In this document: positions 5,148 to 21,491 of the stretch, piece by piece
How the letters are laid out: each line of letters opens with the position of its first letter
Numbering within the stretch: position 1 is the stretch's first letter
Virus record (IMG/VR): IMGVR_UViG_3300029286_000272
Coordinates: 1 to 21,886 of that record
DNA: 21,886 bases
Strand: one strand, 5' to 3'
From: a virus
Notes under the pieces: generated by a model
The model's input: the letters and a program-made list of their open reading frames with translations, nothing else
Told to the model about the DNA's origin: nothing
The model's database searches: none
Translations under genes and position numbers: made by a program

Positions 5148-5588
5148 ATGAACGAAACGGCTTTATTCTTCAATTCAATAGTGACTGGACTTAACAGCTT
5201 AACGGTTGTCGGATTGATCGCACTGATAGTGATTTTGATTTTTGTTTGCCTAAAGATGGGATGGATCAAACCGGAATGGTTCGCGATAAAAACCGGTAGA
5301 GATGAAAAATTAGACAGTATTTTAAGCCTTGTCCAAAAGTTCGATGAAAATGATTTGAATCACACATGCAAGTCAATTGAGGTACAGCGCATAAACAGCG
5401 CATTGGAGAAGATAAATTCAACACTTGAATCGGTGTTGGTAACAATGAACACTCAAGCGGAACTTACAAGACAGGTGGTTTATGGACAAAAAAATATCTG
5501 TGATAAATATGATTTACACGATAAGCAGGCAAGGGATATAATGAATACATGCACTAATATATGGGAAAAAAAGTGCAAAGCGTTTTAA
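5148..5588 (+). CDS. single-pass membrane protein with coiled-coil tail, unknown function
   Basis: 146 residues. Residues about 18-36 (LTVVGLIALIVILIFVCLK) form one hydrophobic helix. The rest is soluble and helical with heptad-like stretches (INSALEKINSTLESVLV), and the C-terminal part contains four cysteines. The start ATG 5148 follows an A/T-rich leader without SD. The stop codon overlaps the strong AAGGAGG of the next small gene. A short N-terminal anchor plus a helical domain after the fibre gene could suit a lysis accessory (spanin- or holin-regulator-like) or a membrane-docked host-interaction protein. There is no family match I recognise, so the function stays open. Confidence 0.7.
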   Translation: MNETALFFNSIVTGLNSLTVVGLIALIVILIFVCLKMGWIKPEWFAIKTGRDEKLDSILSLVQKFDENDLNHTCKSIEVQRINSALEKINSTLESVLVTMNTQAELTRQVVYGQKNICDKYDLHDKQARDIMNTCTNIWEKKCKAF

Positions 5589-5598
5589 GGAGGTTACA

Positions 5599-5742
5599 AT
5601 GAAACAACCGTGGTGTTTAGTCAACCAGTGTGTCATTCCCAGGCATACTGCCAAGGAATGTGAAAACAAGCAGTGCCGGCAGTTGGTATATATGTGCCAG
5701 ACCGACATTGACGATATGATGTCTCGGATGGGAGGAGCATGA
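5599..5742 (+). CDS. cysteine-rich microprotein 1 of a tandem trio (47 aa)
   Basis: A 47-residue ORF opening with MKQPWCLVNQCVIPRHTAKE and containing Cys6, Cys11, Cys21, Cys26 and Cys33 (C-x4-C-x9-C-x4-C-x6-C). ATG 5599 is four bases after a near-perfect AAGGAGGT (5587-5594), one of the few strong SD sites in the window. Its TGA overlaps the ATG of the next ORF (ATGA). The Cys spacing and the 'C-V-I-P-x-x-T-A-K' segment align with the next two ORFs, supporting real, related genes. The cysteines could bind zinc or form disulfides; there is no signal peptide, so metal binding in the cytoplasm is the simpler reading. No family recognised. Confidence 0.62.
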   Translation: MKQPWCLVNQCVIPRHTAKECENKQCRQLVYMCQTDIDDMMSRMGGA

Positions 5743-5861
5743 ACGGCAGATATTATTGCACGAGGGACGATTGCTATGTCCCCTGGCAGAAAGCCAAACG
5801 GGTATGCCTGTGCAAGGGCAAGAGACGCGACCAGCGCTGCTGGAGGCTCCAGAGTGGATAG
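5739..5861 (+). CDS. cysteine-rich microprotein 2 of a tandem trio (40 aa)
   Basis: 40 residues from ATG 5739, which overlaps the stop of microprotein 1 by four bases. GGAGG (5731-5735) lies three bases upstream. It starts MNGRYYCTRDDCYVPWQKAK and carries Cys7, Cys12, Cys23, Cys25 and Cys34 in a strongly basic, aromatic sequence. Against microprotein 1 it shares an aromatic-Cys, the C-x4-C step and the 'C-(Y)-V-P-x-x-x-A-K' stretch. Against microprotein 3 the distance from Cys7 to Cys23 is identical. The overlapping start and the SD argue for translational coupling. Likely a small metal- or nucleic-acid-binding protein, inferred only from charge and cysteines. Confidence 0.57.
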   Translation: MNGRYYCTRDDCYVPWQKAKRVCLCKGKRRDQRCWRLQSG

Positions 5862-5997
5862 TTCCTTTCAATGCGGATTAAATGGGGGCTATATCGAGGA
5901 TCGCAAGGTCAAGCACCGTTGCAAGGTTAGAAAATGTTTCTTTCTTAAGGAAAGCAAACAATCTACCCTTGCCTGTTTTTCTCCGTCCGCCAGATAA
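5854..5997 (+). CDS. cysteine-rich microprotein 3 of a tandem trio (47 aa, GTG start)
   Basis: 47 residues from GTG 5854, which overlaps the TAG of microprotein 2. GGAGG at 5842-5846 is seven bases upstream, an ideal spacing, which decides this start over the longer frame running from 5776. It contains Cys7, Cys23, Cys28 and Cys41. The segment GYIEDRKVKHRCKVRKC aligns with the middle of microprotein 2 without gaps (Cys7 to Cys23) and repeats the C-x4-C step of microprotein 1. Position 12, Cys in the other two, is Gly here, so one ligand is lost or replaced. Third member of a probable duplication series; function unknown. Confidence 0.52.
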   Translation: MDSSFQCGLNGGYIEDRKVKHRCKVRKCFFLKESKQSTLACFSPSAR

Positions 5998-6088
5998 TAT
6001 TTCTACACCCTTAGGATATGCTGGCTTACGGAGAAAAGCGGATTAATAATCAGCGGATTACCCTAATAAGGTAGGCGCTAAAAAACGA
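5998..6088 (+). other. short non-coding gap with direct repeat GCGGATTA
   Basis: Ninety-one bases between the Cys-rich trio and the next gene. The octamer GCGGATTA occurs twice, ten bases apart, near 6039 and 6055. Only an 18-codon ORF can be read (from 6016) and I do not call it. There is no clear promoter or terminator. Confidence 0.3.
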
Positions 6089-6298
6089 ATGTCAGCTGGT
6101 GAACCAAACTATAGAAGGTTGCGTGAATTGGGAAAACTTCCCAATGATAAAATCAATAAGATTCCAGAATTAAAAGAGATCGAGGAATTGAAAAAAATAA
6201 TCAAAGAACTGAAAGGAAAAATGTGTAAAGATTGTCGCGACAAACTTTTCCCTAAAGAAAAAGTAACCCCGGCGGCGGAACAAACTCCTAACGCCTAA
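6089..6298 (+). CDS. small charged helical protein with CxxC motif, unknown
   Basis: 69 residues. Residues about 24-46 form a Lys/Glu-rich helix (ELKEIEELKKIIKELKGK), followed by Met-Cys-Lys-Asp-Cys and a Pro/Ala-rich tail. One CxxC pair could bind metal by dimerisation or be redox-active, but there is no thioredoxin fold at this length. ATG 6089 has no SD. The stop is five bases before the adaptor gene start, so it probably belongs to the same transcript. It may be an accessory virion or assembly factor; that is context only. Confidence 0.6.
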   Translation: MSAGEPNYRRLRELGKLPNDKINKIPELKEIEELKKIIKELKGKMCKDCRDKLFPKEKVTPAAEQTPNA

Positions 6299-6303
6299 AT
6301 TAA

Positions 6304-7749
6304 ATGTCATATCATCGTATCAATGTAAATATAAACGAACTTATCAACGGTGCGCCGACGTTGGTTTTAGACGCGGATGCCGCATCGGGTGCGGGAACGA
6401 TCACAGTTAAATCGATCATCGGCGCGGCGGATAAAAAGATACTTTTATTCCGACAGCCGGGCAGCGAACTGGCCGAGATCGGATCGATCAATGGCTCCCC
6501 CAGCGGCAATACCATTACGTTATTGAGCAATCTGACGGAATCGCATCCGGCCGGAACGACTGTTTATATCATCAGTTTCAATCAGGTAAGGTTTTATCAT
6601 TCCGCCACCGAAGTTGATGCTAACGTCAGTGATCTTACGTTGACGGCACTGGCCGCGGCTCAAGATATCGATCCGACCCAGATCGTTAATTTTTACAATG
6701 ATGCGGTGCAGACCAGCGGTTATTATTATTTCCGTTTCTCGGACAGCGTTAATACGGTCAATGATCGTTACTCCGACGCGATCCCATGGGGGGCTAAGGA
6801 GGGCAAGTTCGCCCGTAATCAAGTTGGTTACTTGTTGGATTATGTAAGTAAAAAACTTGACCATAATTGGGACGAAAGATTTTCACGCGATACTGCCTTA
6901 GATGAAATTAATGAGTGTCTTAGTTACATTCAAGGAAAATTAAAGCGTTGGTCGCGCTATTTAGTCAGCAATTACTCCTTGGGTCAAACGGCGCGCGGCA
7001 GTTTTGAGTTTACCTTGCCTAGCGATATCTATGACGCGACCAGCAATCGTTCGATCCTGCAGATCAGGATTGGCGGAATGATCGATCCTTTAACCTGGCT
7101 TGACGAAAAGGAGTTTGACCAGGTTATCTCCGGAGTTAAGATGTCGCCCCTGCGGACCCAGGCAGTTGCCACCGATGTGACTCTTGACGTTGATAATTCC
7201 TATGACTTTGATGATGATGGCACCCTTCATATATATACTGCCGGAACATTAGACGAGATCACCTACACCGGCGCGACGCGCAGCGCTACCGCGGGCCAGT
7301 TTACCGGTGTTCCGGCCACCGGTGACGGCGCCATCGGCGCGACCCATGCGGTGGATACGCTGGTGTGGCAGGATGAAGTTGAATCGATGCCGAAATACTG
7401 GACGATAAAAAACGGCAAGGTTTATATTTATCCTTTGCCGGACGAGACCTGGGAAAACAAGAACGTAGAGATCGATTGTACGCGCGAAGCTACCCAGGTT
7501 GATAGCGAGAGTGACACTATTGACACAAACCGTTATGATATGTGTAAGCACTGGCTACTTTGGCAGGGAAAAACCTACTGGAAGAACAATGGCAAGGTTG
7601 ATGTAAAAGATGATGACTTTTTAATCTTCAATGATATTTTAAAGTCGGCGATCAGGACAACTACCAGCGGACAGAAGTTTAAAATGACGCCTAAGATTAA
7701 TCAGATATCGTATCGTACAAGACGGCGGTATCCGTTTAATGTAGAATAA
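6304..7749 (+). CDS. head-tail adaptor / connector protein
   Basis: 481 residues. Residues about 165-260 hold a helical adaptor-type segment (GYLLDYVSKKLDHNWDE, ALDEINECLSYIQGKLKRW) followed by FEFTLPSDIYDATSNRSIL, and later MPKYWTIKNGKVYIYPLPDE, the 'P-x-Y-W-x-x-x-N/G-x-x-I-Y-P-x-P' signature seen in phage adaptor and gp4/gp11-type ring proteins. Two extra beta modules are present. One is near the N-terminus (VLDADAASGAGTITV through SGNTITLLSNLTESHPAGT). The other is at about 295-355 (DVTLDVDNSYDFDDDGTLHI to THAVDTLVWQ). Both types recur in other phage neck proteins. It would sit under the portal. The nozzle gene follows after two bases. Confidence 0.72.
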   Translation: MSYHRINVNINELINGAPTLVLDADAASGAGTITVKSIIGAADKKILLFRQPGSELAEIGSINGSPSGNTITLLSNLTESHPAGTTVYIISFNQVRFYHSATEVDANVSDLTLTALAAAQDIDPTQIVNFYNDAVQTSGYYYFRFSDSVNTVNDRYSDAIPWGAKEGKFARNQVGYLLDYVSKKLDHNWDERFSRDTALDEINECLSYIQGKLKRWSRYLVSNYSLGQTARGSFEFTLPSDIYDATSNRSILQIRIGGMIDPLTWLDEKEFDQVISGVKMSPLRTQAVATDVTLDVDNSYDFDDDGTLHIYTAGTLDEITYTGATRSATAGQFTGVPATGDGAIGATHAVDTLVWQDEVESMPKYWTIKNGKVYIYPLPDETWENKNVEIDCTREATQVDSESDTIDTNRYDMCKHWLLWQGKTYWKNNGKVDVKDDDFLIFNDILKSAIRTTTSGQKFKMTPKINQISYRTRRRYPFNVE

Positions 7750-13335: not shown

Positions 13336-16300
13336 ATGGCTTTTTACAATCCTGGAAAAAATGAAGATATCCATCAAGGTTTTTTATCTGTCTTGGGTAA
13401 TGATGATGCTTCATCTCCCAAAGGATTTTATGCCGCGACCCATCAAAAAAAGGCGAGTTCTACCGACCTCGAATCCATCGACGACCTGTTGAAACTGGCC
13501 AAAGAGAAGGGCCTGCTCGACGAAGCGATGGAGAACGAAGTGATGACTCCCAAACTGTCGGCGATCGAGAGGTTGGTTTCCGGTCTGGGCGCGCTCAATC
13601 CCGCGGAGGCGATCAGCCGGCAGATGGAGGGCACACAGAACTTCATGATGGCCTATCCGGAGACGGTGGTGCAAAGTGTGGCATCGGCGCTGACCGGAAA
13701 CGACTACGGAGAGCAGACCAAAAAGCGTTACTTTGCCGATGTGGCGCGCAACATGGGTATTGAGAATAATATCGCGGTGGGTGGTATCGGATTGGTCGGA
13801 GATATCCTACTTGATCCGTCGACTTATTTCGGCGGCGCGATCATGCGCGCGGGCGTTGGCGTAGTAAAAGTCGCGACCAAGGCGGCCGCTAAGGTGGGCA
13901 TCGGCGCGGTGGAAAAGGCGTCTCCGTTGGCCGCCGAGAAATTAATTGAGGCAGGAAAGAATATCAAAGAGGCGACAGGAGAACTATTTATAGAAGGTTG
14001 GGGTTCAACTACCGGCCTACGCGAGACAATGGTCAAACGTTTGGGAACGGCGGGACGCATCATGAACGGTTTGATGGAATCGAACATGAAGCGTCTGGGA
14101 AGCGGAGTATTGAACGCCGACCAGATGGACGAGTTCGCCTATTCTCTCCTTGCCGGCAAGAACGCCGAGCTTAAATTTGTCGAGGAGACCAATGAAAATT
14201 TGATCGAGACTTTCAATAAGGCGTATCCTAACGCGAAGTTTCCGTTAAAGGACGCCGAAGGCGCGATCCGCCGGATGGAGAACCTGGCGGCATCAGCTCC
14301 CAAGACTATTGAACGATTGACCGAGTTGCGGCAACGACTGGCTATGCCAGAACTGGCCGAAGATATCTACGGCCTTAAAGGAACGATCGCCGAGATCAAG
14401 GAACAGATCGCCGCGATCACCCCCAAGGCCGAAGGCGCCGCCGTAACCAAGGCCCAGAAGTCATTGATGGCCGGGATCGCCACCGACGAGCAGCAGAACG
14501 CGGCCTTGTTGTCGGCGATGTCCACGGACAAGATGGCCGACTTAGCCCAGATCGCCAAGCTCAAGGCACAGTTGGAAGCGATGGAGAAGGGAGTGATCGA
14601 TCCGATCCTAGGACAAGTTAAGAAGCAGATCGTCACCGACAGCGCCCGCTATTCCGCCGACGACATCATCAAATTGGCGATGCGTGGCATGGACCCCAAG
14701 CTGGCAATCCGAGACAAGATCGCCGAGTTGGATATGGCCATCCGCCAGGTGACCAACGACATGTTCAAAAAGCAGTCGATGTTGGAGAACATCCTGGGCG
14801 CGCGTTCGATCGCCAAGGACGAGATCCGGGAAGCGTTCAAGACCGGAGACTTTTCTTTACTTCCGGAGAAACTGGTCAACGCGCTCAAGCCCGCGATCAA
14901 GGCGGCGGGGTTTATGTCGATTAAGGTGGCGGATAACTTTAGCATAAAGGGCGAAGAGATTGGCAAAAGCATGTCCGAATCGGTTTCTCCATTTTTTAAA
15001 AGCCATGGCTTGACCGAGTATGCAACGGATGACTATAATAAATTTAAGACCGCCATTAGTGTTGACAAAACTACCGGATACGCTATAAAGCCTGATGGAG
15101 AATTGGTTAGTGTGTTTAATTCCGGAGTGAAGGGACAAGGTGAGGCTTCGGTAGTCGAGGCGATCGAGAACGGCGCGACTAAATTAGATGCTTTCGGTCC
15201 GTTAAAATCTTATTATGAGCGTTTTGGTTTCAAAGAAAAAAGTCGTTTAAAATGGGATGATCAATATGCTCCAGAAGGCTGGGACTATGCCAAAAATGGC
15301 CGGCCCGATATCGTCTTCATGGAGCTTGAAAAAAATGGAAATAAGGAATGGGAAGCGATACGTCGGAAATGGTCCGACGCCGGACAAAATGCGCCAGTAT
15401 ATGAAAGAAACTTTCGGCCTGTCGGAAAAGGAAATCGACGAATTGGAGGCCAAAGCGCAAACGGACGAGAAGAAATACTGGCAGGAACATCCGGAACAAG
15501 TCTAAAAATCGGAGCCATCTCCGAGGACGCCACTGTTGAAGCGGCGCTTTTGGCGCAAATAAGGCGTAATGCCGATAACGCGCGCAAGCTAGGGATCGAT
15601 GATCCATTCCAAATGTACTTTCCGTCGCTATCCAAGGATAATCTGGTTAAGACGTTCAATAAACTGCGGCCGCTGGGACTGTTCAACGAAGGCTGGCGCA
15701 AACAGTACCGCGGTCTGTTGAAGGATGAGGAACTGATCCGCAATCCGGCGCAGGCATTTTACAAGATCGAGTCTGAAGGTTACCTGAATCAATATAATCG
15801 CAAGATCATGGATGAGGTGGTAACCGATTTTGGTTTGCCTAAGAGCGCCTTTAAAAACGAGATGGCCGCCAAAGCCGAGGGTTACCGGATGCTTAAAACC
15901 AAGGGGCAGTTCGGCGAGGAGATCGGATGGCTCAAGAACGCCGACTGGAGCCTGGTCAGCGGCCAGATCAACGGTTCGTTTGGCGCGATCGACGCGCTGG
16001 CCAAGGCGACCGGGTTTGACGCGCTTACCAGCCTGTTCAAGCGCTTCGTGACCGGACCGTTCGCGCCGTTCCATATCCGCAACTGGGTGTCGGGCAAGAT
16101 CCAGAACTTTGAAGTGATCGGCAAGGCCGCACTTGACCCGGATACGATCGCCATCGGCAGCCGGGTGGCCGCGCGCATGGCCTCCGGATCATTCCGAGGA
16201 GTCTATGGTAAGACGGTAAGCGGCGAAGTAATGGTTACCGGCAAGGCTGCGCGGCGGTTAAAGTCGTTTGGTAAGGAGACCGCGACCTTGGGCGGCAAGG

Positions 16301-17457
16301 AATATTACTTAGACGACATCGGCAACGCGGTTGAGGATCGTTTCGGCGGTTCGTCGCAGTTCATTGCAGATGCCGAGGCGGTATTGAATGACGCTAACCT
16401 TTTGCAGGATGGCGCGGTTTTTGCCAAAGAGAGAATGAAGGACTTTGGCAAGCAAATAAAAAGCGTCAAGGGTATTCCCGGAGCGGTATTGGGAGCCAAT
16501 ACACCACACTTTAGAGCCGCTCGGGTGGTAGGAAACTTCATTGAGATGCAGCAGAAGACCGAGATGGTCGTGGCCGCGCTCAAGAAAGGATATGATATGG
16601 AAGGCGCCCTGAAGCTGGCCGAGAAGGCCGGCTTTGATTACCGCAACCTGTCGCAGTTTGAGAGCCACATCATGCGCCGGATCGTGCCGTTCTACACCTA
16701 CAATCGCAAGAACATTGAGTTACAGCTCAAGACATTGGGAGAGAATCCCCAGCGGATCAATCAGATCATCCGCGCTATTGACAACGCGCAAAACTTATTC
16801 TGGAAACAAGATATGACCGACCAGGAGAAAAAAAACCTACCGGCCTATCTGCGCGAGTATATCAATATGCCGGTAGGACGCAGCGATGAAGGCGTGCTGC
16901 AATTTGTCCGTACTTTCGGCACCCCCATCGAAGCGTTCACGGAAAACTTCAGGATGGCGGCCGAAGGCAAGGGCAGTTTTGAGCGCAGTTTTCTGGCGCA
17001 AGTATCCCGGGTTAATCCTTACCTGAAAGTTCCTATTGAGATCGGATTCGGAACCGACTCGTTTAGGATGAAAGATATCAAGGATGTTTATACTGCCAAG
17101 GAATATCAAGATGCTCCGCAGCCGATCAAAGACTTCTTGCGCTTGGATGAAGTAAAAAAGAAGTCGGCTACCGGACAGGAGTATACGCAATATGTGGCTG
17201 ATCCGGACCGGTTACACGTCATGCGCTCGCTGTTCACCAGCCGTGGATTCACCTACTTCAACAACATTTATAATGGTGACGCCCCGGCATTGTTCCGTAT
17301 TCTCGATGCAACAACGGGAATCAAATCCACCGAGGTCGACACCATCCGCCAGGAAGGCTACACTACGCGCGAAAAGGAAGAAGCGTTGGGAGATCTGCTG
17401 CGGCGTCATGGGATCGTGGGAGAGTTCAATAAACTGTTCATACCTAAAAACCAATAA
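13336..17457 (+). CDS. giant internal virion / ejection protein with embedded GNAT-like module
   Basis: 1373 residues, the largest gene here. It is mainly helical. Landmarks are GIGLVGDILLDPSTYFG (about 155), coiled helices (about 300-500), FVTGPFAPFHIRNWVSGK (about 905), PHFRAARVVGNFIEMQQKTE and IMRRIVPFYTYNRKNIELQL (about 1115), all in the style of podovirus ejection proteins and large polyvalent phage proteins. Residues about 555-662 look like an inserted GNAT-fold segment (ATKLDAFGPLKSYYERFGF, DDQYAPEGWDYA, GRPDIVFM). The next about 57 codons (15335-15502) look more protein-like one frame over, see findings. It has no SD and starts 12 bases after the LysM gene. It probably enters the host with the DNA. 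Confidence 0.75.
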   Translation: MAFYNPGKNEDIHQGFLSVLGNDDASSPKGFYAATHQKKASSTDLESIDDLLKLAKEKGLLDEAMENEVMTPKLSAIERLVSGLGALNPAEAISRQMEGTQNFMMAYPETVVQSVASALTGNDYGEQTKKRYFADVARNMGIENNIAVGGIGLVGDILLDPSTYFGGAIMRAGVGVVKVATKAAAKVGIGAVEKASPLAAEKLIEAGKNIKEATGELFIEGWGSTTGLRETMVKRLGTAGRIMNGLMESNMKRLGSGVLNADQMDEFAYSLLAGKNAELKFVEETNENLIETFNKAYPNAKFPLKDAEGAIRRMENLAASAPKTIERLTELRQRLAMPELAEDIYGLKGTIAEIKEQIAAITPKAEGAAVTKAQKSLMAGIATDEQQNAALLSAMSTDKMADLAQIAKLKAQLEAMEKGVIDPILGQVKKQIVTDSARYSADDIIKLAMRGMDPKLAIRDKIAELDMAIRQVTNDMFKKQSMLENILGARSIAKDEIREAFKTGDFSLLPEKLVNALKPAIKAAGFMSIKVADNFSIKGEEIGKSMSESVSPFFKSHGLTEYATDDYNKFKTAISVDKTTGYAIKPDGELVSVFNSGVKGQGEASVVEAIENGATKLDAFGPLKSYYERFGFKEKSRLKWDDQYAPEGWDYAKNGRPDIVFMELEKNGNKEWEAIRRKWSDAGQNAPVYERNFRPVGKGNRRIGGQSANGREEILAGTSGTSLKIGAISEDATVEAALLAQIRRNADNARKLGIDDPFQMYFPSLSKDNLVKTFNKLRPLGLFNEGWRKQYRGLLKDEELIRNPAQAFYKIESEGYLNQYNRKIMDEVVTDFGLPKSAFKNEMAAKAEGYRMLKTKGQFGEEIGWLKNADWSLVSGQINGSFGAIDALAKATGFDALTSLFKRFVTGPFAPFHIRNWVSGKIQNFEVIGKAALDPDTIAIGSRVAARMASGSFRGVYGKTVSGEVMVTGKAARRLKSFGKETATLGGKEYYLDDIGNAVEDRFGGSSQFIADAEAVLNDANLLQDGAVFAKERMKDFGKQIKSVKGIPGAVLGANTPHFRAARVVGNFIEMQQKTEMVVAALKKGYDMEGALKLAEKAGFDYRNLSQFESHIMRRIVPFYTYNRKNIELQLKTLGENPQRINQIIRAIDNAQNLFWKQDMTDQEKKNLPAYLREYINMPVGRSDEGVLQFVRTFGTPIEAFTENFRMAAEGKGSFERSFLAQVSRVNPYLKVPIEIGFGTDSFRMKDIKDVYTAKEYQDAPQPIKDFLRLDEVKKKSATGQEYTQYVADPDRLHVMRSLFTSRGFTYFNNIYNGDAPALFRILDATTGIKSTEVDTIRQEGYTTREKEEALGDLLRRHGIVGEFNKLFIPKNQ

Positions 17458-17462
17458 AACTT

Positions 17463-17717
17463 ATGACAATTAAAGAATTTTTGCTTCAATGGAATTGTTC
17501 TCCTGCCGGCAGATTATTCCGCCGCTTCTATATTGTCGGCCTGGCCGCGCTGATTCCGTACTTTATCAGCAAGGTAGGGCTTGACCCAATGACGATCGTT
17601 GACAAGATCATTACCTTGCCGGCAAGTGAGTGGTTATTCTTTGTTAAGTTGTTTGTTGGCGCGGGACTTGTCGGAGGAATCGATAAACTGACGCGTGAAT
17701 GGAAGAATTTATCGTAA
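17463..17717 (+). CDS. small two-transmembrane protein, holin candidate
   Basis: 84 residues. Two hydrophobic helices (about 22-38, FYIVGLAALIPYFISKV, and 57-74, WLFFVKLFVGAGLVGGI) are joined by a short polar loop, with a positively charged C-terminus (DKLTREWKNL). This size and topology fit small holins, which permeabilise the inner membrane for lysis. The gene is the last one of the late + strand block, just before the strong terminator. No endolysin is visible beside it on the same strand, so the holin label is provisional; a virion membrane protein is the alternative. Confidence 0.55.
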   Translation: MTIKEFLLQWNCSPAGRLFRRFYIVGLAALIPYFISKVGLDPMTIVDKIITLPASEWLFFVKLFVGAGLVGGIDKLTREWKNLS

Positions 17718-17754
17718 GGTGTATAATATAGGCAGCCTGTATTGATGCGCCCAA

Positions 17755-17798
17755 TCTTGACGCAAAAACCATCCGAAAGGATGGTTTTTGCGTCAAGA
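17755..17798. terminator. bidirectional intrinsic terminator, perfect 20-bp stem with GAAA loop
   Basis: TCTTGACGCAAAAACCATCC (17755-17774), loop GAAA, then its exact complement (17779-17798). In either direction the core is CCATCC-loop-GGATGG followed by TTTTT, the classic stem plus T-run. It lies where the + strand virion genes meet the - strand genes, so it can stop both convergent transcripts. Confidence 0.88.
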
Positions 17799-17916
17799 TT
17801 TCCCGGGAGTAGAAGGTATAAAGATTGAGCGTTTCCCTGTGATCTCCGGTGTAGAAGAAAAACAAGGCGAAACGATTTATAAGGCTGCCCGAGAATCACA
17901 CTTTTATTTTAATGGC
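17799..17916. other. 118-base gap with no gene called
   Basis: Short open stretches exist on both strands, but none has a credible start and protein-like continuation. The + strand reading through here continues antisense into the transglutaminase-like gene, so I do not call it. Confidence 0.4.
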
Positions 17917-18465
17917 TTAATTAAATTCCGTCAAATTACCCTGATATCTCCAAGCCACCTGATAGTCATTAGGGATGACGATCTCTTGCCCCGGCACGAC
18001 CTTGGCCCAGCGATCGTTCTGGCTCTCCATAACATATGCCGCCAGTTCGTCATTCTCATCAAGGGCAATGATCAACACCGCGCGATGGGGGATCTTCTCA
18101 CCGGTAACAGTCGTTACCATGCAAGTGAATCTGCCGGCGGTGTTCAAGTTGAAGAACTCCGCGGCGCGCGAGCAGAACGATCCGGAGAAGTTGTCGCAAT
18201 CGAAGGTGTCGGTGATATACTTTTTCCGCTCGGTCCAGTCCAACGCCATGATCTCCTGCCATATCGACCACTTGGCGACTTGATATTTCATGTCGTAAAG
18301 CGCGACCGAGATGGTCGGGAAGTATTTTTTGATCGCCGCGTTCATCTGTACTGAAGTGATCTTCTGATATTCCGGTTTGATGAAAGTGGTGACTGCTATC
18401 TCGATATTTTTACGCAGCAATTCGACAAACTGCTGGTAATTAGCTTTCAATTTTTCATCTGCCAT
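17917..18465 (-). CDS. transglutaminase-like (papain-fold) protein
   Basis: 182 residues. The diagnostic parts are TDTFDCDNFSGSFCSRAAEF with Cys90, PHRAVLIIALDENDELAAYV with His127, and MESQND (147-151), giving a Cys...His...Asp/Glu order like transglutaminase-like cysteine peptidases ('DCDDF...HA...E.Q'). The N-terminal about 80 residues are helical. No signal peptide is present. Upstream, GGGAA lies a few bases before ATG. It is the last gene of the - strand run, followed by the shared terminator. Possible roles are protein or peptidoglycan-peptide cleavage (a lysis enzyme next to the holin candidate) or a host-takeover hydrolase. His127 is followed by Arg rather than the usual Ala, a small deviation. 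Confidence 0.6.
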   Translation of the reverse strand: MADEKLKANYQQFVELLRKNIEIAVTTFIKPEYQKITSVQMNAAIKKYFPTISVALYDMKYQVAKWSIWQEIMALDWTERKKYITDTFDCDNFSGSFCSRAAEFFNLNTAGRFTCMVTTVTGEKIPHRAVLIIALDENDELAAYVMESQNDRWAKVVPGQEIVIPNDYQVAWRYQGNLTEFN

Positions 18466-20488: not shown

Positions 20489-20967
20489 TTTTTTATCACT
20501 ACTTTAATTATTAGTTTTTTTCCATTTGGCTTGGTAAATTGATAACAAGGATGTAGCTCACCGTCCATAATGCAATAATTAACTTCTGTCACCTTCATCA
20601 CCTCGCACTCCTCCTCTTCGGGCAGGGCGGGGAAAACCATCCACCAATAATCCCAAGTACCAATTTCATAATAGATTTTTGGTAATTTAATTTCAGAAAT
20701 TTTATAACTATTCTTGCTGAACTCATTCATCACCCTCTCTCCCACCTTAAACTCGTACGGCTTGGGAGGGATTGGGGTTACTTTGGTAACGGTCTCCTCA
20801 ATCAGTGCTCCGTCTTTATCCATCGCAAAATCATTTTCGTTTTCTTTAAAGCCGTAAAAATGACTTATGGTGGCATAATAAACAACTGCATTTTTGCCGT
20901 TTTCATATTCCACCTCCACCGCAAACCCCTTGTTCAAATAAAACTCAATTTTTTGTTGGTTGGTCAT
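20485..20967 (-). CDS. hypothetical protein, 160 aa
   Basis: 160 residues from ATG 20967, overlapping the previous stop by four bases (ATGA). It starts with a helix (TNQQKIEFYLNKGFAVEVEY) and has mixed beta segments, a Pro stretch (VTPIPPKPYEF), the phrase KVGERVMNEFSKNSYKISEI (SH3-like 'vGdrV' strand) and an aromatic section (YYEIGTWDYWWMVFPALPEE). The two cysteines are far apart. The KVGERV strand suggests a small SH3-type beta barrel, but I cannot assign a role. It belongs to the - strand chain. Confidence 0.65.
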   Translation of the reverse strand: MTNQQKIEFYLNKGFAVEVEYENGKNAVVYYATISHFYGFKENENDFAMDKDGALIEETVTKVTPIPPKPYEFKVGERVMNEFSKNSYKISEIKLPKIYYEIGTWDYWWMVFPALPEEEECEVMKVTEVNYCIMDGELHPCYQFTKPNGKKLIIKVVIKK

Positions 20968-21008
20968 TTTGTTTTTGTTAATAAAGAAATTCCATACTCA
21001 ATAATTTT
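20961..21008. repeat. 48-bp direct repeat, copy A
   Basis: Identical over 48 bases to 21790-21837. It covers the last codons of the Ala-repeat gene and the first codon of the next gene. Confidence 0.88.
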
Positions 21009-21491
21009 TGTTTTCATTGCGGAACGGGCGGCGGAATCGGCGGAATAGGCGGCGAAATAGGCGGCGGAATCGGCGGAATAGGCGGCGGAACGGGCGGCGG
21101 AATAGGCGGCGAAATAGGCGGCGAAATAGGCGGCGAAATAGGCGGCGAAATAGGCGGCGGAATCGGCGGCGTCTTTATTATCTTGCGTTGGATTTTCTAT
21201 ACATTTTTGCGCGGCTTCAATGGCTTTGCGGGGGCGGTCATCTCCGGGGTATTGTCGTTCATAAATATCAATCACTTGCAAGGCGGAAAAACAGGCATAA
21301 CTGACATATTCCTTGTAATCCATAATCCTCACAATTAGCCAATTCGCCCAGTCCCACTTGTCATCGGCAACAAGGCGGCGAATTACGGCGACGGGTTCTT
21401 TGTCCTCATACTTGGATACCCAATCTTTGCCTTCGGCGCAGGCATAGATTGAGACCAAAAATTTGTCGGTGATTTTAAGATTTCGTGTCAT
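20964..21491 (-). CDS. alanine-repeat protein, Imm5-like
   Basis: 175 residues. The N-terminal half (LKITDKFLVSIYACAEGKDW, LQVIDIYERQYPGDDRPRKA, then IEAAQKC) resembles the Imm5-like / Ala-rich helical proteins common in phages and toxin-immunity loci, where 'YP-DDRPRKAIEAA' is a hallmark. Residues about 111-158 are a repeat of four-residue units (AAYF, AAYS, AARS, AADS) encoded by 12-nt tandem copies. The end is KTKIIEYGISLLTKTK. The start ATG 21491 overlaps the upstream gene by 17 bases, with no SD. The immunity role is only a family label; in phages the job is unknown. A partial second copy lies at the window end. Confidence 0.7.
   Translation of the reverse strand: MTRNLKITDKFLVSIYACAEGKDWVSKYEDKEPVAVIRRLVADDKWDWANWLIVRIMDYKEYVSYACFSALQVIDIYERQYPGDDRPRKAIEAAQKCIENPTQDNKDAADSAAYFAAYFAAYFAAYFAAYSAARSAAYSADSAAYFAAYSADSAARSAMKTKIIEYGISLLTKTK
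21018..21161 (-). repeat. 12-nt tandem repeat encoding A-A-Y-F units
   Basis: On the + strand the unit GGCGGCGAAATA and its variants (GGCGGAATCGGC, GGCGGCGGAATA and similar) repeats about twelve times without breaking the - strand frame. Every unit is a whole number of codons, so copy number can change without a frameshift. A coding minisatellite prone to slippage. Confidence 0.85.

Follow-up and report, generated by a model that had tools for sequence, protein, structure and literature searches.

Two families of cysteine-rich microproteins and a conserved folded RNA in two phages with no other clear genes in common

The window, as we term the whole stretch of 21,886 nt of viral DNA analysed here (IMG/VR record IMGVR_UViG_3300029286_000272), contains three short, overlapping ORFs encoding cysteine-rich microproteins, designated m1, m2 and m3 (Table 1). 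Two of these, m1 and m3, represent protein families that have been kept, along with a conserved folded RNA overlapping m3, in a second phage, IMGVR_UViG_3300029959_001569 (G001), in which no other clear genes are shared with the window. The evidence for each component of this cassette is set out below, followed by its distribution and the functions it might have.

Table 1. Features in and around the cassette, in window coordinates.
Feature	Position	Strand	Description
Upstream flanking gene	5148-5588	+	one N-terminal transmembrane segment, coiled coil
Promoter-like site upstream of m1	5513-5542	+	TTTACA-18-TATAAT, 11/12, consensus scan
m1 SD	5587-5593	+	AAGGAGG, -11.5 kcal/mol
m1 ORF	5599-5742	+	47 codons, Cys-rich microprotein, Cys at C6, C11, C21, C26, C33
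m2 SD	5731-5735	+	GGAGG, -9.6 kcal/mol, within MGGA end of m1
m2 ORF	5739-5861	+	40 codons, basic, Cys-rich; window phage only; possible m1-like duplicate
m3 SD	5842-5846	+	GGAGG, -9.3 kcal/mol, within m2
m3 ORF	5854-5997	+	47 codons, basic Cys-rich microprotein, GTG start, C7, C23, C28, C41
Structured RNA, probable three-way junction	5909-6062	+	overlaps 3' half of m3; fold conserved in G001
Hairpin 1	5921-5972	+	within m3 codons; pairing differs between window and G001
Hairpin 2	5975-6039	+	arms 5975-5993 and 6021-6039

Three overlapping ORFs with strong SDs

A preliminary description of this DNA had reported three coupled ORFs, m1 overlapping m2 through ATGA and the GTG of m3 overlapping the TAG of m2, and all three were confirmed exactly where it had placed them. 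It had also remarked on their strong SDs, mostly absent from the neighbouring genes. These are indeed the strongest in the window, the median across the 26 starts tested, m genes included, being just -2.7 kcal/mol; none of the 15 long window ORFs (at least 120 aa) has an SD stronger than -6 kcal/mol, and most other genes are preceded by A-rich leaders with no SD. A search for short ORFs (30-80 aa) containing four or more Cys residues and preceded by an SD of -9 kcal/mol or better retrieved exactly m1, m2 and m3 from the window, compared to 0.18 expected from order-2 Markov simulations, and a cluster of three such ORFs was found in none of 60 simulations.

The codons for the C-terminal MGGA of m1 contain the m2 SD, hence this motif alone is no evidence of protein function. 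The net charge of m2 is +7.4, that of m3 about +5.5 and that of the m3 homologue in G001 +6.5, with m1 being neutral. A feature missed by the preliminary description is the promoter-like site upstream of m1; as the region has two such sites, compared to 3.4 in shuffled sequence, it should be taken as suggestive only.

Homologues of m1 and m3 in a second phage

IMG/VR was scanned at the DNA level with the pattern C-x4-C-x2-P-x3-AK-x-C-x4-C, which has no matches in shuffles of the window. Of 23 matching stretches, one encodes a true relative of m1: the G001 protein MKVPWCIANNCVIPRHTAKECEEKNCRHLAYMCEADANKAIAAMGGA, which is 64% identical (E 3e-21 in a search of the G001 record) and retains all five cysteines. 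Differences between the window and G001 copies of the gene are distributed 15/6/29 by codon position over 141 nt, and scoring at the protein level supports frame +1 (z 6.2). The dN/dS comparison that had been proposed as a check gives a low dN of 0.26 with dS saturated; m1 is a real gene under purifying selection. Besides G001, a relaxed form of the pattern retrieved chance matches alone from viral contigs, and a profile of m1 gave weak chance matches alone against 384 genomes of one class and 380 genomes of the phylum Patescibacteria. A fold search with the model of m1 returned no match; the AlphaFold models of the microproteins were of low confidence, with pLDDT values of 72 and 66, and no fold was matched.

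The next ORF in G001, the ATG of which overlaps the m1 stop codon, encodes the homologue of m3 (MQRACALNWIEIKEQDFKHRCLQRKCFFSK..., 44% identical over 36 aa). The two genes are therefore adjacent and in the same order as in the window, with m2 absent. Three of the four m3 cysteines are kept (C7, C23 and C28, with C41 not conserved). The window and G001 genes can be aligned over 38 ungapped codons, giving a signal for frame +1 (z 3.8, P 0.0002) carried by the first 25 codons, C..KCFF (z 3.6), the last 13 having none. The differences are flat with respect to codon position over 25 aligned codons, and the reading of m3 as an RNA only, to which this flatness had pointed, was set aside after the frame test. 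Hence m3 is also a real gene, with a homologue in which cysteines are conserved.

Searching with the m3 motif led back to this G001 locus and to no second credible one, and a pattern scan of genome contigs retrieved Cys-repeat proteins of Myxococcota, with no relative among the matches listed. The best match to the m3 profile, in G149 (E 1.5e-5), was rejected: it has neither an m1-like neighbour nor the RNA element, and lies opposite a gene seemingly encoding a membrane protein.

The origin of m2

The preliminary description had named homologues with the same Cys pattern as support for its proposal, and a lack of homologues and of Cys conservation as grounds for refuting it; homologues with conserved cysteines are available for m1 and m3, such that this refutation fails. 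None was found for m2, the exact pattern of which retrieved chance matches alone from viral contigs, and nothing was found by scanning these contigs with an alignment of all three ORFs.

The three ORFs had been regarded as likely paralogues on account of shared motifs. The identical spacing of Cys7 and Cys23 in m2 and m3 is borne out, but m3 lacks the N-terminal C-x4-C and the proline, and has a glutamine before Cys7. Comparing local alignments to those of shuffled sequences, the similarity of m1 to m2 (p=0.02) and of m2 to m3 (p=0.05) is marginal, and that of m1 to m3 (p=0.48) is unsupported; likewise, profile comparison found nothing between the m1 and m3 families, and a marginal likeness between m1 and m2. 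By these measures m1 and m3 appear to be two separate families, for which common ancestry is unsupported, and m2 is best seen as an m1-like addition specific to the window, the sole possible m1-like duplicate among the three.

A conserved RNA overlapping m3

The preliminary description also missed a structured RNA that spans the end of m3 and continues past it. This RNA is a larger surprise than the microproteins, for which the earlier coordinates, SDs and novelty hold. Downstream of m1, DNA similarity between the window and G001 extends through the KHRC..KCFF codons and beyond the m3 stop to about position 6120, with a score exceeding those of all 500 shuffles. In both phages, the predicted fold consists of a closing stem and two adjoining hairpins, followed by CGGAU-ACC. 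The sense strand has fold z scores of -7.1 in the window and -7.2 in G001, the antisense strand -4.8 and -3.4, respectively. A scan of both strands of the record, scored by regression on base composition, placed 5921-6050 above every other stretch for structure; its counterpart came second in G001.

As MAFFT misaligned the 3' arm of hairpin 2, its pairs were counted by explicit pairing. Twelve are identical in the two phages, two exhibit double compensatory changes, one has a wobble change, one has been lost from both arms, and none is broken; two mismatches in the window are paired in G001. Hairpin 1, in which the 5' arms are alike, is less certain. A covariance model built from G001 alone, rather than from the two sequences, retrieved the window element (E 0.037) and no other foreign sequence from 966 kb. 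Judging from these predicted structures, the RNA conserved over and past the end of m3 is probably a three-way junction.

No Rfam family was matched at its gathering threshold; the best, RAGATH-20 (24.5 bits against 101.4), and the remaining matches were far below and were rejected. Hairpin 2 was discounted as a terminator, as no U-tract follows it. The hammerhead-like CUGAUG of G001 is missing from the window and was also discounted. Elsewhere, two further strongly structured stretches are present at G001rc 34561-34690, upstream of the integrase gene, and 21081-21250 (L137 minus strand). In the window, 17681-17850 ranks second for structure, on both strands; it lies between the convergent operons and is probably a bidirectional terminator.

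Hosts and distribution

G001 is a 36 kb tailed-phage record with an integrase gene about 1.4 kb downstream of the folded element. Its terminase (TerL) has 28 relatives in IMG/VR, and relatives in 38 of the 380 Patescibacteria genomes, the best having 56% identity (E 1e-168). As Patescibacteria were the only phylum searched, the assignment of hosts rests on the abundance and closeness of these matches, from which G001 appears to belong to a phage clade of these ultra-small bacteria. Searches with profiles found m1 and credible m3 sequences in none of the 28 viral TerL relatives, many of which are fragments, and neither m1 nor m3 was found in the sampled Patescibacteria genomes.

The structural genes of G001 and the window are unrelated. 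A 182 aa window protein of no known family (17917-18465, minus strand) matches a G002 protein with 42% identity over 174 aa, and the TerL of G002 is 71% identical to that of G001; this would link the window phage to the pool of Patescibacteria phages. A search of the 380 Patescibacteria genomes with the largest window protein found no match. Being common to two phages, its only known instances, and not found in the TerL relatives of G001, the cassette looks like a transferable accessory module, although two instances cannot prove transfer.

SD use in Patescibacteria and their phages

Strong SDs appear to be rare in this group. Taking the first ATG of each long ORF, such that start calls are approximate, 4.6% of 367 starts in the viruses with related TerL proteins (L139-L167) are better than -6 kcal/mol and 0.8% better than -9 kcal/mol, with 8% of 255 in Patescibacteria segments (L214-L233) passing the former threshold. 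An intact anti-SD, GGATCACCTCCTT, is nevertheless present after a 16S signature in two or more of these Patescibacteria genomes. All five m genes, three from the window and two from G001, have SDs of -9.3 kcal/mol or better; as the G001 m1 gene was found through its protein pattern, its strong SD (-10.3 kcal/mol) is an independent observation. A 33 aa zinc-ribbon-like ORF, MREMYCRKCKRQTVHKFNGFRVWICSICRSYRA, lies near TerL in the Patescibacteria genome G246 (L206:474, minus strand) with an SD of -10.0 kcal/mol; this is perhaps another SD-led Cys microprotein in a prophage of this type.

In Flavobacterium, the anti-SD is masked, and the extended SD of rpsU favours those ribosomes that lack bS21 and in which the anti-SD is therefore free (PMC9976891). 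As with the m genes, a rare extended SD is found in a lineage that keeps its anti-SD and hardly uses SDs (PMC9976891); however, the phylum is a different one, and m1 and m3 are not bS21. An rpsU-like logic for the m genes, with preference from ribosomes whose anti-SD is free, is suggested by analogy and is not a finding. The question raised is what purpose strong SDs serve where the anti-SD is kept yet mostly unused.

Flanking and other genes

Upstream of m1, G001 has a gene built similarly to that in the window; the encoded proteins have no sequence similarity, and the G001 counterpart exhibits a weak, sub-threshold likeness to XhlA (E 0.0026) and DUF2730. Downstream of the G001 cassette is a gene that, read from its sequence, appears holin-like and has no family matches. 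In the window, the CDS at 6304-7749 had been described as an adaptor, an identification that finds no support from any family, and scans of viral contigs with this sequence and with 13336-17457 found nothing. The latter encodes a protein of 1373 aa, within which residues from about 540 to 665 form an insert related to 'acetyltransferase' proteins of Streptomyces and Pseudomonas phages. An HNH endonuclease gene amid the structural genes (1518-2075), with a GC content of 0.32 compared to 0.47 for the window, is likely to be a homing endonuclease insertion. The 175 aa protein encoded by 20964-21491 (minus strand) ends in a repetitive SAAYFAAY-type tail; towards its N terminus it is distantly related (27%) to a sequence in a further viral record (L166/L179).

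Possible functions of the cassette

We tentatively interpret the locus as an accessory late-region cassette, in which microproteins that would bind zinc and RNA act together with the RNA that overlaps m3. Given the conserved spacing of their cysteines, m1 and m3, and also m2, would fold around zinc. The basic nature of m2 and m3, and the overlap of the RNA with m3, suggest that m3 (and m2) may bind RNA, the junction that shares sequence with the 3' half of m3 being the likeliest target. The resulting ribonucleoprotein or feedback loop could tune downstream late or lysis genes, a target suggested by position, with the membrane and coiled-coil gene upstream and, in G001, the holin-like gene downstream. 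Through the strong SDs, ribosomes in which the anti-SD is free might translate the m genes preferentially and at a high level. Two observations sit poorly with such a role: RNA binding leaves that of the neutral m1 unexplained, and the genes downstream of the cassette differ between the two phages.

The preliminary description had envisaged host-takeover or assembly proteins, but with a conserved RNA overlapping m3, and m2 and m3 being basic, an RNA-linked role is at least as well indicated. The microproteins may instead be takeover or anti-defence factors that act on host targets purely as proteins, with the RNA protecting or insulating the 3' end of the mRNA. Their sporadic, accessory distribution, with profile matches absent from the 28 terminase relatives of G001, would favour this account, as would the strong expression signals, and m1, the best conserved part, is not basic. 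Yet the similarity of the RNA past m3, including the junction and loop-adjacent sequence, exceeds the need of a stabilising stem, the cassette is sited with late, not early, genes, and PADLOC and Pfam matches are lacking. This account is a serious possibility, albeit one short of being probable, and the data separate it poorly from an RNA-linked regulator. A long inverted repeat, and the proximity of the G001 integrase gene, might alternatively indicate a DNA site for recombination, replication or packaging with accessory DNA-binding proteins; this is improbable, as in each phage the sense strand folds distinctly more strongly than the antisense, contrary to the expectation for a DNA palindrome, and no integrase gene is seen in the window.

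Location within a structural operon would suit zinc-binding virion or assembly proteins, but the structural genes of the two phages being unrelated makes a common structural subunit unlikely, and no structural gene has an SD as strong as those at three of the five starts, so we think this role very doubtful. It is scarcely credible that the ORFs arose by chance and the RNA element alone is real: m2 has no homologue, the last 13 codons of m3 have no frame signal, and codon-position differences are flat over 25 m3 codons, but the conservation of m1 is strictly codon-like and lies outside the RNA element, already contradicting this explanation for m1, and the C..KCFF frame signal of m3 and the strong SDs oppose it too. 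The most far-reaching form of the RNA-linked interpretation, in which a protein-RNA cassette transferable between Patescibacteria phages is picked out for translation by SDs hardly used elsewhere in phage or host, and so constitutes an SD-based switch in a lineage that ignores SDs, is unlikely.

Comparison with known systems

The preliminary description knew of no family with this arrangement, and m1, m2, m3 and the homologues have no above-threshold match in Pfam, PHROGs, NCBIfam or PADLOC. The closest resemblance is to Rhodanese_C (PF12368), the Cys-rich C-terminal domain of TrhO/YceA-type rhodaneses, with which the C-x4-C-x6-C of m1 aligns (E 0.0014, and 0.026 for G001). However, the scores of 19.4 bits, and 15.3 bits for G001, are below the gathering score of 26.9, half of the profile is covered, and m1 has no rhodanese domain; hence this looks like convergence of Cys spacing.

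Com of phage Mu is a small zinc-binding, RNA-binding translational activator, and would be comparable in manner of working only, as a very small Cys-rich late phage protein with an RNA hairpin in its operon; there is no sequence match through Pfam or PHROGs, the Cys pattern differs, and RNA or zinc binding by the m proteins is putative. The put sequences of HK022 are cis-acting phage RNAs, each composed of two adjoining stem-loops, that function in antitermination. The cassette RNA likewise has adjoining hairpins and lies in a transcribed part of a phage genome, upstream of other genes, but differs in having a third, closing stem, in overlapping a coding gene and in matching no Rfam family.

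As far as these collections show, the cassette is undescribed, consisting of two new microprotein families and a new conserved RNA; the recurrence of m1, m3 and the RNA together in an otherwise unrelated phage indicates that this package is real and new. The protein families offer a conserved Cys pattern that can be tested, alongside a new overlapping RNA in differing phages, and, little being known of Patescibacteria phages, an accessory module common to different ones offers a way into their biology.
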